64,000 nucleotides of DNA from Armatimonas rosea (lineage in GTDB: Bacteria; Armatimonadota; Armatimonadia; Armatimonadales; Armatimonadaceae), in assembly GCF_014202505.1 (NCBI RefSeq), contig NZ_JACHGW010000002.1:1302001-1366000 (forward strand), given 5' to 3'. A model generated the notes under the pieces. The model was not told where the DNA came from. It was given only the letters and a program-made list of their open reading frames with translations, and searched no databases. This document shows, one piece after another, positions 25,304 through 29,575 of the stretch (positions within the stretch are counted from its first letter, which is position 1; each line of letters begins with the position of its first letter). The position numbers and the translations under genes were made by a program.

Positions 25304-25906
25304 ATGGCTGGTTACAAGGCTCGTCTGCAAGAGCGCTACGAGAAAGAAATCATCACGGCCCTGATGAAGCAGTTCGGCTACAAGAACATCATGGAAGTGC
25401 CGCGCCTCGAGAAGATCGTCCTGAACATGGGCGTCGGTGAGGCCGGACGCACCGGTGGCGACCCGAAGCTGCTAGAGAACGCGATCAAGGACCTCTCTGC
25501 CATCACCGGACAGAAGCCTGCGATCTGCGTGGCCAAGAAGTCCGTCGCTAACTTCCGTCTGCGTGAAGGTGCCAAGATCGGCTGCAAGGTCACCCTGCGC
25601 GGTGCCCGCATGTGGGAGTTCCTCGACAAGCTTGTCAATGTCACCCTCCCCCGTGTCCGTGACTTTCAGGGTGTGAACCCCAACTCGTTCGATGGCCGTG
25701 GCAACTTCGCCATGGGCATGAAAGAGCAGCTGACCTTCCCGGAAATTAGCTACGATCAGATCGATAAGATTCGCGGTATGGACATCATCATGGTGACCAC
25801 TGCGAAGAAGGATGAGGAGGCTCGTTACCTCCTTCACCAGCTGGGAATGCCATTCCGTTCTTCGGCGAACGCAGGACCAGGTGGTGCCACCAAGCTAGAG
25901 CTGTAG
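25304..25906 (+). CDS. rplE: Ribosomal protein uL5
   Basis: A 200-residue protein that binds 5S rRNA. Signatures are [35 protein letters not shown] and [17 protein letters not shown]. It is about 15-20 residues longer than usual because of a C-terminal tail ([15 protein letters not shown]). It is the last ribosomal gene here: the expected rpsN, rpsH, rplF, rplR, rpsE and secY genes do not follow. Confidence 0.97.
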
Positions 25907-25933: not shown

Positions 25934-25968
25934 GCCCCTCTGGACAGCCAGAGGGGCATTTCTTTTTT
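25934..25968 (+). terminator. Terminator of the ribosomal cluster
   Basis: The stem GCCCCTCTGG / CCAGAGGGGC with loop ACAG is followed by ATTTCTTTTTT. This marks a true end of the cluster after rplE. Confidence 0.85.
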
Positions 25969-25974
25969 AGGACG

Positions 25975-26394
25975 CTAGCCCCGGAACGGCTTGTTGCTCT
26001 CTAGACGAAAGGTCGCGCGGGTGGCGAAGTGGTCAGTGTCCCCAACGGGGAAGACCACATCGGCGGCGCGCTCGATACGTCGGCGGCCTTCTTTGATCGT
26101 TTCAAGCTGGGTGAGTCCCTGCTGACGGCGCTGGCTGGCGGCCTCTTGCGCGGCGGCTTGTGTGGCGTTGTGTGCCTTCCAGCTCTCGAACGTGCTCGTC
26201 AGCTCCGCGACCCGTGCGGGGGAGATGCCGGGGAGGGTGTCGGTCTCTAGCTTTTGGAGAATCCCGGCGCTGTAGGTGGCAAGGCTGGCCCGGCTGAGGG
26301 TGATGCGCTCCCCGATGTAGTAGTGCCCCAAGTGGTTGTCAGCGCTGGGGGCATTACAGTCCGGCGTACTTGAGGCGCGCGGCGGTCTGAACAC
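25975..26394 (-). CDS. Helical protein, C-terminal part of a probably frameshifted gene
   Basis: The frame from 26394 gives 139 residues; only the part from about GHYYIGERITLSRASLATYS onward looks like natural protein. It is helical and Gln/Ala-rich, ending FRLESNKPFRG. A TTG codon just before GHYYIG could serve as an alternative start. It overlaps the upstream frame by 41 bases, and together the two would make one helical protein of about 235 residues if a +1 shift occurred near KYAG. No function recognised. Confidence 0.45.
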   Translation of the reverse strand: MFRPPRASSTPDCNAPSADNHLGHYYIGERITLSRASLATYSAGILQKLETDTLPGISPARVAELTSTFESWKAHNATQAAAQEAASQRRQQGLTQLETIKEGRRRIERAADVVFPVGDTDHFATRATFRLESNKPFRG

Positions 26395-26695
26395 CCCGGA
26401 TCAGGCGTCGGAGCTTGGACTCGGTGGCGCTCTCTTCACTCGTCGTAGTTTTCTTTTGCACCTTCTCGTCCACGGCGCCGGTGAAGAGCACCCGGCAGCT
26501 CGCAATGGTCTCGGCGAGGCGCTGTAGCTCCGCAGTCGTGATGCCGCCCTCGGCGAGTGCGGCGTTGTGCTGTGGGGCTTGGGCCGCTTGCAGTAGCTCC
26601 TCCGCAAGTTGCAACTCGGCGAGGAAGCGCTTGTCGATAGCACCGTAGGGCGTGGTCGTTTTCTTCTTCGTCGTGGTCTCTGTTGTCGTTTCCAT
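26354..26695 (-). CDS. Helical protein, N-terminal part of a probably frameshifted gene
   Basis: This 113-residue frame starts at an ATG with a Thr/Lys-rich head (METTTETTTKKKTTT), then GAIDKRFLAELQLAEELLQA, and ends at IRGVQTAARLKYAGL with a TAA. The sequence is strongly helical and stops in the middle of what looks like a continuing helix. The downstream frame picks up with a matching helical pattern, so a single-base change or a programmed shift is suspected. Composition matches the host chromosome. Function unknown. Confidence 0.5.
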   Translation of the reverse strand: METTTETTTKKKTTTPYGAIDKRFLAELQLAEELLQAAQAPQHNAALAEGGITTAELQRLAETIASCRVLFTGAVDEKVQKKTTTSEESATESKLRRLIRGVQTAARLKYAGL

Positions 26696-26710
26696 AGGGT
26701 CTCCAGGGGG

Positions 26711-26989
26711 TTAACAATAGGTTGGTTCAGAGGGTTGCAAGCTCAGGTCGGTGATACAAATCTTCACGTCACTAGTACAAATCGCTACATCAGTCCTGTA
26801 TTTATCCACGTCACTGGTACGAGTGGCGACATTACCTCCTTGCACATCGGTGTCAGCTCTCTGCTCCTTCAGGTTACTGTGTTGCATAGCTAGGTGAGCC
26901 CCACATTCCTTTGTGTCGTCACTTCCCTGTTCCAACCGTCTGCTTACTTGCTCTTCTCTAAGTATATCGTTAGTGTCTCCATACCGCAA
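26711..26989 (-). CDS. Small heptad-repeat protein, uncertain
   Basis: A 92-residue frame beginning at a TTG. Its second half is a run of heptads: SDVDKYR, TDVAICT, SDVKICI, TDLSLQP. This pattern resembles short coiled-coil proteins built from TDVxxLK-type heptads. On the DNA level this is a degenerate 21-base tandem repeat. There is no obvious promoter or ribosome-binding site and the start is weak, so it could be a gene remnant. Confidence 0.3.
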   Translation of the reverse strand: MRYGDTNDILREEQVSRRLEQGSDDTKECGAHLAMQHSNLKEQRADTDVQGGNVATRTSDVDKYRTDVAICTSDVKICITDLSLQPSEPTYC

Positions 26990-27123
26990 TATCTGGCTGG
27001 GAGATACGGCCCGACTACGCTTGATTCCCCTTTCTACCTATTTTCTTGATCTCAATCCCTCCAAGTGCTTGATCTGCTTCTGCCTTTTGCCTTGAAATAA
27101 TGTCGAATATCAATAATAAACAG

Positions 27124-27158
27124 TAAGTATTAGTTATGTCATTTTTATGACATACTTA
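27124..27158. promoter_or_regulatory. Nested inverted repeat, possible operator
   Basis: A perfect 8-bp stem TATGTCAT / ATGACATA with a TTTT loop (27135-27154) is overlapped by an outer pair TAAGTAT (27124-27130) / ATACTTA (27152-27158). It could be a repressor site or a weak terminator for transcripts entering from the left. Confidence 0.4.
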
Positions 27159-27202
27159 GTGCTATCTCTCAAGTGAAGAAGTGGCATTAATCACATGTCT
27201 AT

Positions 27203-27245
27203 TGTGATACGCATCACACTAGGTAAAAGTACATCGTGTTATACT
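27203..27245 (+). promoter_or_regulatory. CRP/FNR-type site plus -10 box (class II geometry)
   Basis: TGTGATACGCATCACA (27203-27218) matches TGTGA-N6-TCACA perfectly. TATACT lies at 27240-27245. If transcription starts about 7 bases after the -10, the palindrome is centred near -41.5, the standard position for a class II CRP-dependent promoter. No -35 hexamer is present, as expected for an activator-dependent promoter. Confidence 0.55.
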
Positions 27246-27275
27246 CTCGTTAAGAAGAACTAGGTGAGATGATTT

Positions 27276-27354
27276 GAGTCTCGCTCATTATCAATTGTTG
27301 ACACATCGATCTCCTTACCATCGATCAGTCAATAACTATGAATGGACGAGATTC
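27276..27354 (+). promoter_or_regulatory. Long stem-loop in the leader, possible RNA switch
   Basis: The left arm (GAGTCTCGCTCATT, then TTGAC and ATCGAT) is mirrored by the right arm (ATCGAT, GTCAA, then AATGGACGAGATTC). The 9-base loop CTCCTTACC is complementary over CTCCT to the ribosome-binding site AGGAG just upstream of the start at 27394. A loop-to-SD contact could control translation (inference). Confidence 0.5.
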
Positions 27355-27393
27355 TAGTGCTGATTGTCAGTAGGGATGACAGGAGGAACTTAG

Positions 27394-28260
27394 ATGGAAA
27401 CAAATTTGGATCATTGCTTTAACAAAGAAATTGAAAAACGTGCTTATATTATGTATGTTAAGTCTGGTTTTAAGCAGGGAAACAGTGAGTATAACTGGGA
27501 AAGTGCGAAGCTAGAACTGGAAAAGGAAATAGAAATAGAAGCGTATCGGCTTTGGGAATATGAAGGCCGAAAGTCAGGTGGTGATGAATATTATTACAAT
27601 ATAGCATTGAGAAATATTTGTATTCCTGAATGCAAAAATGGTCAAGGTGATATTGAGAATATCGAGATTATTTTGCCGGTTAAGGCAAGTCTCGTTCCTG
27701 TGCGGGGAAACATTACGCAAGACGTACCTGAGGTCTCTTCGACTGAAGCAATGAATGGTTTTTCTAAATTATTGAGCGTATGGATTAAGCCTAAATATCA
27801 TGAAATTGTACTGACTGCTGCAGGAAGTATGGGGCTCTTTAATCTTGCGAATCTGTTTCCAATCGTAGACGCAATCTCTGTTGGCGGTATATGGACAACA
27901 ATGCTTTTTGCTATTTTTAAAAAATCTGGGCATAAAGTTGATTCGGCGGCGGTGACTAAACTTATTGCTATTTCACTTGCTGGCTGGGGGGCTTACTCAC
28001 TAGGTAGTAAGATATTTACACTTGCGGCAGTGCCACTTCTGGCAGGTGCTGTACCTATGTTTGCAACCGTGTCCTTTTTGAATATAGTATTGAATGTTAT
28101 ATTCACTATACGTCTTGCAAGTTATATGATTGATCAATTGGAAAATAAAAATAATGAGATTGGGAAAATAGTTCTTGAGTCTGCGGTTCAACTGATTCCG
28201 GCCGTATTTAAGATGCCTAGTATTGAAGAAATTAAAGCTGTTATAGATTGTTTTAAATGA
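27394..28260 (+). CDS. Accessory protein: two DUF2934-like units plus DUF697-like membrane domain
   Basis: A 288-residue protein. Residues about 10-42 and 43-75 are two copies of a short helical unit resembling DUF2934 (KEIEKRAYIMYVKSGFKQGN and KEIEIEAYRLWEYEGRKSGG). After a linker, residues about 125-260 are hydrophobic and resemble the DUF697 domain found at the C-terminus of some Era-like GTPases (FPIVDAISVGGIWTTMLFAI, KLIAISLAGWGAYSLGSKIF). No GTPase domain is present. The gene is strikingly AT-rich: two 60-base lines I counted gave 30% and 42% G+C. The start follows a good AGGAGG. Probably horizontally acquired; function unknown, possibly a membrane stress or defence factor. Confidence 0.7.
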   Translation: METNLDHCFNKEIEKRAYIMYVKSGFKQGNSEYNWESAKLELEKEIEIEAYRLWEYEGRKSGGDEYYYNIALRNICIPECKNGQGDIENIEIILPVKASLVPVRGNITQDVPEVSSTEAMNGFSKLLSVWIKPKYHEIVLTAAGSMGLFNLANLFPIVDAISVGGIWTTMLFAIFKKSGHKVDSAAVTKLIAISLAGWGAYSLGSKIFTLAAVPLLAGAVPMFATVSFLNIVLNVIFTIRLASYMIDQLENKNNEIGKIVLESAVQLIPAVFKMPSIEEIKAVIDCFK

Positions 28261-28282
28261 TTAGAATGGGATAAATGGGAGC

Positions 28283-28320
28283 GGGGAGAGGTAAGCAAGG
28301 CTTCCCTCTCCCTTCTTTTG
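28283..28320. terminator. Terminator shared by the accessory gene and gdhA
   Basis: The stem GGGAGAGG / CCTCTCCC is followed by TTCTTTTG on the plus strand. The genes on either side are convergent. Confidence 0.6.
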
Positions 28321-28324
28321 TGTG

Positions 28325-29575
28325 TTAGGGGAAGATACCCAGCGCGGTGATCGCCTCGGCGACTCGGCCTACCCCGACGATGTAGGCGGCGGTGCGGAAG
28401 TCGCAGTTGTGCTTCTTGGCGGCGGCGTTGACCTGGCCGAAGGCGCGCACCATGATCTGCTCCAGCTTGGCATTGACCTCGCTCTCGCTCCAGAAGAACG
28501 ACTGGAGGCCCTGCACCCACTCGAAGTAGCTCACGGTGACCCCGCCCGCGTTGGCGAGGACATCGGGGACCACCACCACGCCCTTGTCGTTGAGGATCTT
28601 GTCGGCCTCGGGGGTTGTCGGGCCGTTGGCACCCTCGATAATGTAGCGCGCCTTGACCTTGTGGGCATTTTCCCCCGTGAGCTGGTTCTGGAGCGCGGCG
28701 GGGATGAGCAGGTCCACGGGGAGGTAGAGCAGCTCCTCTGGGGCGAGCGGCTCGGACTCGGGGAAGCCGACCACGGTGCCGGTCTTCTTTACCCAGTCCT
28801 CTAAGTTGAGGATATCCAGGCCGTTTTGGTTGAAGATCGCGCCTTGCACATCGGAGACCGCCTGGATCTTACAGCCGGAGCGGTAGAAGAGCTTGGCGGC
28901 GGCGGCCCCGACATTGCCAAAGCCCTGCACCGCGACTGTCGAATCGGGGAGCTGGTTACCACGGGAGAGCAGGGTCTCACGGGCGATGGTCACGACCCCG
29001 CGCCCCGTTGCCTCGATACGCCCCTCGGAGCCGCCGATGGCGATCGGCTTTCCCGTGACCACGGCGGGGACTGTCGTGCCCTTGAGCATGGAGTAGGTGT
29101 CCATGATCCAGGCCATGGTCTGTCCATTGGTGCCCATGTCCGGGGCGGGGATGTCCTTATCCGGCCCGAGGAGAATCGCGATCTCGGTGGTGTAGCGGCG
29201 GGTCAGGTCCTCAAGCTCGGCCAGATTCAGCTGGCGGGGATCGCAGGCGACACCGCCTTTTGCTCCGCCAAAGGGCAGGTTGACCACGGCGCACTTGATG
29301 GTCATCCAGAACGCCAGGGCCTTTACCTCGCTGATATCGGTCTCGGGGTGAAAGCGAATCCCGCCCTTGGCCGGGCCGCGGGTGAGGTTGTGGTGGACAC
29401 GGTAGCCCGTGAACATCTTAATCGAGCCATCGCGCATCGAGACCGGGAAATGAACCGTCAGCTCACGCTTGGGAGATTTTAAAACTTCGTGGACATTGGG
29501 ATCGAGGTTGATCCTCTCGGCGACTGCGGCAAGCTGCTGCTGCGCCATTGCAAAGCTATCTAGGTGTTCGCTCAT
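28325..29575 (-). CDS. gdhA: Glu/Leu/Phe/Val dehydrogenase (glutamate dehydrogenase)
   Basis: A 416-residue NAD(P)-dependent amino-acid dehydrogenase, most likely glutamate dehydrogenase, linking 2-oxoglutarate and ammonia to glutamate. The catalytic Lys lies in NLPFGGAKGGV, substrate residues in KGGIRFHPETDISEVKALAF, and the Rossmann motif is VAVQGFGNVGAAAAKL. Length and order are typical of the hexameric short form. A CATAAT box ends 8 bases before the ATG. Cofactor choice cannot be decided by eye. Confidence 0.94.
   Translation of the reverse strand: MSEHLDSFAMAQQQLAAVAERINLDPNVHEVLKSPKRELTVHFPVSMRDGSIKMFTGYRVHHNLTRGPAKGGIRFHPETDISEVKALAFWMTIKCAVVNLPFGGAKGGVACDPRQLNLAELEDLTRRYTTEIAILLGPDKDIPAPDMGTNGQTMAWIMDTYSMLKGTTVPAVVTGKPIAIGGSEGRIEATGRGVVTIARETLLSRGNQLPDSTVAVQGFGNVGAAAAKLFYRSGCKIQAVSDVQGAIFNQNGLDILNLEDWVKKTGTVVGFPESEPLAPEELLYLPVDLLIPAALQNQLTGENAHKVKARYIIEGANGPTTPEADKILNDKGVVVVPDVLANAGGVTVSYFEWVQGLQSFFWSESEVNAKLEQIMVRAFGQVNAAAKKHNCDFRTAAYIVGVGRVAEAITALGIFP

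Follow-up and report, generated by a model that had tools for sequence, protein, structure and literature searches.

The 64,000-nucleotide stretch of DNA analysed here (the window) carries, between the ribosomal-protein gene rplE and gdhA, a gene of foreign composition whose 288-aa product joins two DUF2934 units to a hydrophobic DUF697-like domain, and sequence comparison supports its acquisition by horizontal transfer. The frame is a real gene: by our own estimate, the odds of a random 288-codon open reading frame at this G+C content are about 1 in 10^8-10^9. Judged by its encoded proteins, the source would be an Armatimonas-like member of the phylum Armatimonadota. Coordinates of the gene, its domains and the surrounding elements are collected in Table 1.

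With 37.5% G+C and a GC3 of 30%, against 61.4% G+C for the window and a GC3 of 84% for gdhA, the gene confirms in both overall and third-position composition the AT-rich gene in a GC-rich chromosome described in the initial annotation, at the coordinates given there. The AT-rich part of the locus runs from about 26950 to 28280, and its start was thus previously placed too early, at 26700. The gene comes close to the window's minimum for stretches of 867 nt (z -5.1) and lies below the minimum for that length (40.6% G+C) in a 400-kb sample from this genome, where stretches under 45% G+C make up 0.26% of positions. This composition is exceptional, although the genome has other AT-rich single-gene islands. 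One further AT-rich island in the same genome (L061:12401-13717, 42% G+C) carries a 151-aa gene.

The operon gene rplE ends at 25906 and the minus-strand gdhA has its stop at 28325, leaving a gap of 2418 bp that holds a broken minus-strand gene (25975-26695) and the plus-strand gene under study (27394-28260). In the sister genome G001, which is the sole other member of the genus in the comparison set, the same two genes are convergent neighbours only 73 bp apart, so that the stretch was either inserted here or lost in G001. Insertion is favoured because of the foreign composition and because searches of the phylum's other 290 genomes, one of them with a profile of two sequences, found no homologue of the 288-aa protein. 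The horizontal origin proposed earlier is thereby supported, and no AT-rich close homologue is conserved in G001, which lacks the island. No transposon-type direct or inverted repeats flank the island, inspection showed neither an integrase nor ends like attC (integron attC core sites, sought by eye near the gene and the island ends, were absent), Rfam gave no match on the island, and the 704-bp intergenic region has no second copy in this genome or in 12 related genomes.

Table 1. Features of the rplE-gdhA gap (positions in the window)
Feature	Positions	Strand	Basis or remarks
Intrinsic terminator stem 3' of rplE, left border of the island	25934..25957	+	Follows the ribosomal-protein operon
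Accessory island, rplE terminator to gdhA	25966..28324	.	Missing in sister genome G001; edges approximate
Frameshifted member of genus-restricted family X	25975..26695	-	Two overlapping frames; relatives elsewhere in the genome and in G001
Perfect inverted repeat TATGTCAT-TTTT-ATGACATA, possible operator	27135..27154	.	0.03 expected in the window
CRP-type palindrome TGTGATACGCATCACA, exact TGTGA-N6-TCACA	27203..27218	.	Single occurrence in the window (0.03 expected); none in the 400-kb sample
Putative extended -10 TGTTATACT	27237..27245	+	Read from the sequence
Long leader hairpin	27276..27354	+	35-nt arms, 71% complementary
Ribosome-binding site AGGAGG	27381..27386	+	Read from the sequence
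Gene, 288 aa, DUF2934 x2 + DUF697-like	27394..28260	+	ORF list, Pfam, composition, profile comparison
DUF2934 unit 1, residues 11-43	27424..27522	+	Pfam, 22.5 bits alone
DUF2934 unit 2	27514..27594	+	20.8 bits alone, slightly below cut-off; shares central helix with unit 1 in model
DUF697-like hydrophobic domain, residues 118-287	27745..28254	+	Stanieria homologue (E 9e-8), profile comparison, hydropathy peaks

Two DUF2934 units and a DUF697-like domain

Pfam DUF2934 (PF11154) matched two stretches of the protein, which as a whole scored above threshold (E 1.7e-8, 34.4 bits against a cut-off of 22), bearing out the two units recognised initially. An AlphaFold2 model of residues 1-82 contains three helices (pLDDT 74), and a Foldseek search of this model against solved structures returned nothing significant (best E 1.4). 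The protein holds the only DUF2934 matches of its genome, and few genomes of the phylum carry the domain at all (5 of 291 above cut-off). Two proteins of one genome of the same order join it to glycine-zipper-like hydrophobic segments, while in another genome of the phylum it forms the C-terminal, possibly regulatory, tail of an apparent P-type ATPase (L068:1477-3090, minus strand). Given these fusions, DUF2934 joined to a membrane segment is a recurring theme. A single search gave DUF2934 matches on 560 plasmid records; most of the plasmid proteins examined are short and standalone, whereas the window protein carries the domain as an N-terminal tandem on a hydrophobic protein. Elsewhere, a DUF2934 segment (L073:1461-1905, minus strand) weakly matched DUF7067 of plant alpha-glucan water dikinases (E 0.061), on the same helical unit and probably by chance.

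Residues 118-287 are hydrophobic, with moderate hydropathy peaks, and sequence comparison makes them DUF697-like through remote homology and not a family member by the Pfam threshold. Pfam DUF697 (PF05128) gave no match to the protein at E values up to 10. The likeness runs through the sole homologue found, Stanieria cyanosphaera WP_150109204.1, encoded on plasmid pSTA7437.02, which is 30.7% identical over the C-terminal 164 aa (E 9e-8), is devoid of DUF2934 and itself matches DUF697 below the Pfam threshold (E 0.013, 15.7 bits against a cut-off of 27.7). When a profile built from only these two sequences was compared with that of 14 DUF697 domains of the phylum, a moderate match was obtained (Prob 74%, score 37.5), colinear over about 150 positions, against a maximum of 14.9 for 20 column shuffles. 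The DUF697-like domain of the initial annotation hence stands as a remote resemblance that direct Pfam comparison does not detect, and profile searches recovered both proposed similarities, DUF2934 above cut-off and DUF697 at a distance. A full-length single-sequence AlphaFold2 model (pLDDT 39) was unusable for a fold comparison with DUF697, and sequence searches of the PDB gave no relevant match. Peptide-pattern scans found no close homologue in 84,980 species genomes, although these scans are insensitive (the second missed the Stanieria protein itself), and none was found in viral contigs and phages.

The protein does lack a GTPase domain, as had been noted, but this is not unusual, and we rejected the absence as a remarkable trait: GTPase-free DUF697 proteins are ordinary in the family, being carried by 11 of 12 genomes, namely its own and 10 of the other 11 (frames of 259-337 codons, no GTPase by eye). 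The one in its own genome (L035, G000:C1:997306) joins DUF697 to a SHOCT-like tail, likewise without a GTPase domain, but its gene is host-like, common across the bacterial family, and its domain scores above the Pfam cut-off. No second case of two DUF2934 units combined with a DUF697-like domain turned up in the collections searched, which cover part of NCBI. At the level of sequence, the architecture joins modules that are known but uncharacterised in a new way.

Putative control elements upstream of the gene

From the position of the extended -10, and with the start site inferred from it, the CRP-type palindrome would be centred near -41.5. In E. coli, class II CRP sites have their centre at -41.5, and we infer that a CRP-type activator may control the gene. 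Downstream, the fold of the leader is not significantly better than that of shuffled sequences (z -1.8), which leaves the hairpin as a mere lead. The CUCCU of its loop CUCCUUACC (27311-27319) is complementary to AGGAGG, the ribosome-binding site, and the 27276-27386 region could possibly act as a translation switch.

A candidate role in stress or defence at the membrane

We tentatively read the gene product as a protein of foreign origin that sits at the membrane, carries a helical adaptor at its N-terminus and acts in stress or defence, an interpretation that we hold to be plausible while falling short of probable. We infer its membrane location, adaptor function and stress or defence role as follows. 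The gene would be horizontally acquired accessory cargo of an island of about 2.3 kb, and its product would probably be a cytoplasmic-membrane protein, with the C-terminal DUF697-like helices in or on the membrane. The paired DUF2934 units would serve on the cytosolic side as a small adaptor made of helices, either to bind a partner or to sense a state. The most likely role would be that of a membrane-acting stress or phage-defence accessory, either an effector or a membrane guard, during infection or envelope stress.

The circumstantial evidence hints weakly at the stress or defence role inferred in the initial annotation. Two thin leads suggest a part in conflict, namely a related family X island that carries a Septu system (see below) and the Stanieria homologue, which is divergent from the gene for an EAD4-NB-ARC NTPase (EAD4 match, E 8.8e-22) and lies between it and a gene for a dynamin-family GTPase (L003:2384-9886). 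A predicted function of EADs is the coupling of effectors with NTPases (Kaur et al. 2020, PMC7159879). The same EAD on the effector, expected of such systems, is missing here, as Pfam EAD models matched neither the window protein nor the Stanieria DUF697-like protein, and the window island has no NTPase gene. No PADLOC family matched the window protein at E values up to 1. Further points against defence are that the Stanieria pair represents one divergent neighbourhood and that the window island offers no partner gene.

A serious, if doubtful, alternative is a YcjF-like envelope-maintenance protein that plays no part in phage conflict but binds the inner membrane and helps the cell to handle its nutrient state or envelope stress of a general kind. 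The profile comparison shows a colinear resemblance to DUF697/YcjF, hydrophobic helices included, and phiX174 infection of E. coli induces ycjF and ycjX along with membrane damage (PMC8125068). Stress genes also lie near several plasmid DUF2934 genes (see also PMC9100948), and the putative CRP-type site at class II spacing fits this alternative, as a CRP-type promoter would link the gene to energy or carbon status. The protein nevertheless falls below the Pfam threshold and, unlike the ycjX-ycjF pair, its gene has no adjoining YcjX-like GTPase partner, its neighbours being the broken X gene, rplE and gdhA. An isolated gene on an acquired island would moreover be unusual for a housekeeping function, and the genome already has a DUF697 protein of its own.

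The gene could also be passenger DNA, in the form of an orphan that is intact yet under no selection and sits in an insertion-tolerant gap beside an X gene that was already broken. The frameshift in X, the recurrence of AT-rich orphan genes in this genome and the absence of relatives in the phylum all agree with such an origin, which we nonetheless judge unlikely: the 288-codon frame is intact with both domains recognisable, and it is preceded by a good ribosome-binding site and a well-spaced promoter-like region.

A bolder version of the defence reading, that of a new membrane immune effector in which a DUF697-like domain disrupts the membrane and the tandem DUF2934 is its adaptor, much like a death domain, on an undescribed, genus-specific type of X-marked island that also ferries Septu, appears quite improbable. 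Contamination or an assembly error that brought foreign DNA into the contig could produce so extreme a composition but is barely credible, with the island inside a 1.54-Mb contig, a contamination estimate of 0.43% for the genome (6.33 Mb, estimated completeness 98.2%) and several comparable AT-rich islands in it.

The stress or defence reading remains the one we prefer. If defence proved correct, DUF2934, a domain of unknown function, would receive its first function, DUF697-type membrane domains would be linked to bacterial immunity, and X-marked islands would become a place to seek defence genes in this genus; otherwise, the locus is another horizontally acquired orphan gene.

Family X and its other loci

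Family X consists of helical-looking proteins of about 240 aa that, among 291 genomes of the phylum, occur only in the 2 that belong to this genus and have no convincing relative in Pfam or the PDB. Four X loci occur in this genome (the window, L089, L090 and L091) and six in G001 (L092-L097), some copies being broken. At L089 (G000:C1), X lies about 15 bp from a PtuA gene (36% G+C, E 6e-130), which is followed by PtuB (E 2e-71); by sequence, this pair (L089:4279-6462) is a Septu anti-phage pair. In G001, only about 185 bp separate pgk, which flanks the site, from the next conserved gene (by eye, IMP-dehydrogenase-like), so that the Septu operon too was either inserted here or lost in G001. 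Behind X at L090 (G000:C7) lies a 141-aa orphan gene of 27% G+C (L090:4718-5143) with a weak PADLOC match to a 2TM effector model (E 0.0018). The fourth locus (G000:C3) is without AT-rich cargo, and a broken X copy occupies the matching place in G001.

Three of the four X loci in this genome are thus near AT-rich DNA, compared with 2.3% of sampled positions. A search for sequence common to the AT-rich regions of the X-linked islands, such as the ends of a mobile element, gave only short, chance-level matches. X may mark islands of this kind or, since the six loci of G001 carry no AT-rich cargo, merely gaps that tolerate insertion. Upstream of X in the window, a short minus-strand ORF (26711-26989) contains degenerate 21-nt repeats, encoding TSDV/TDVAI-like heptads, that occur nowhere else in the window.
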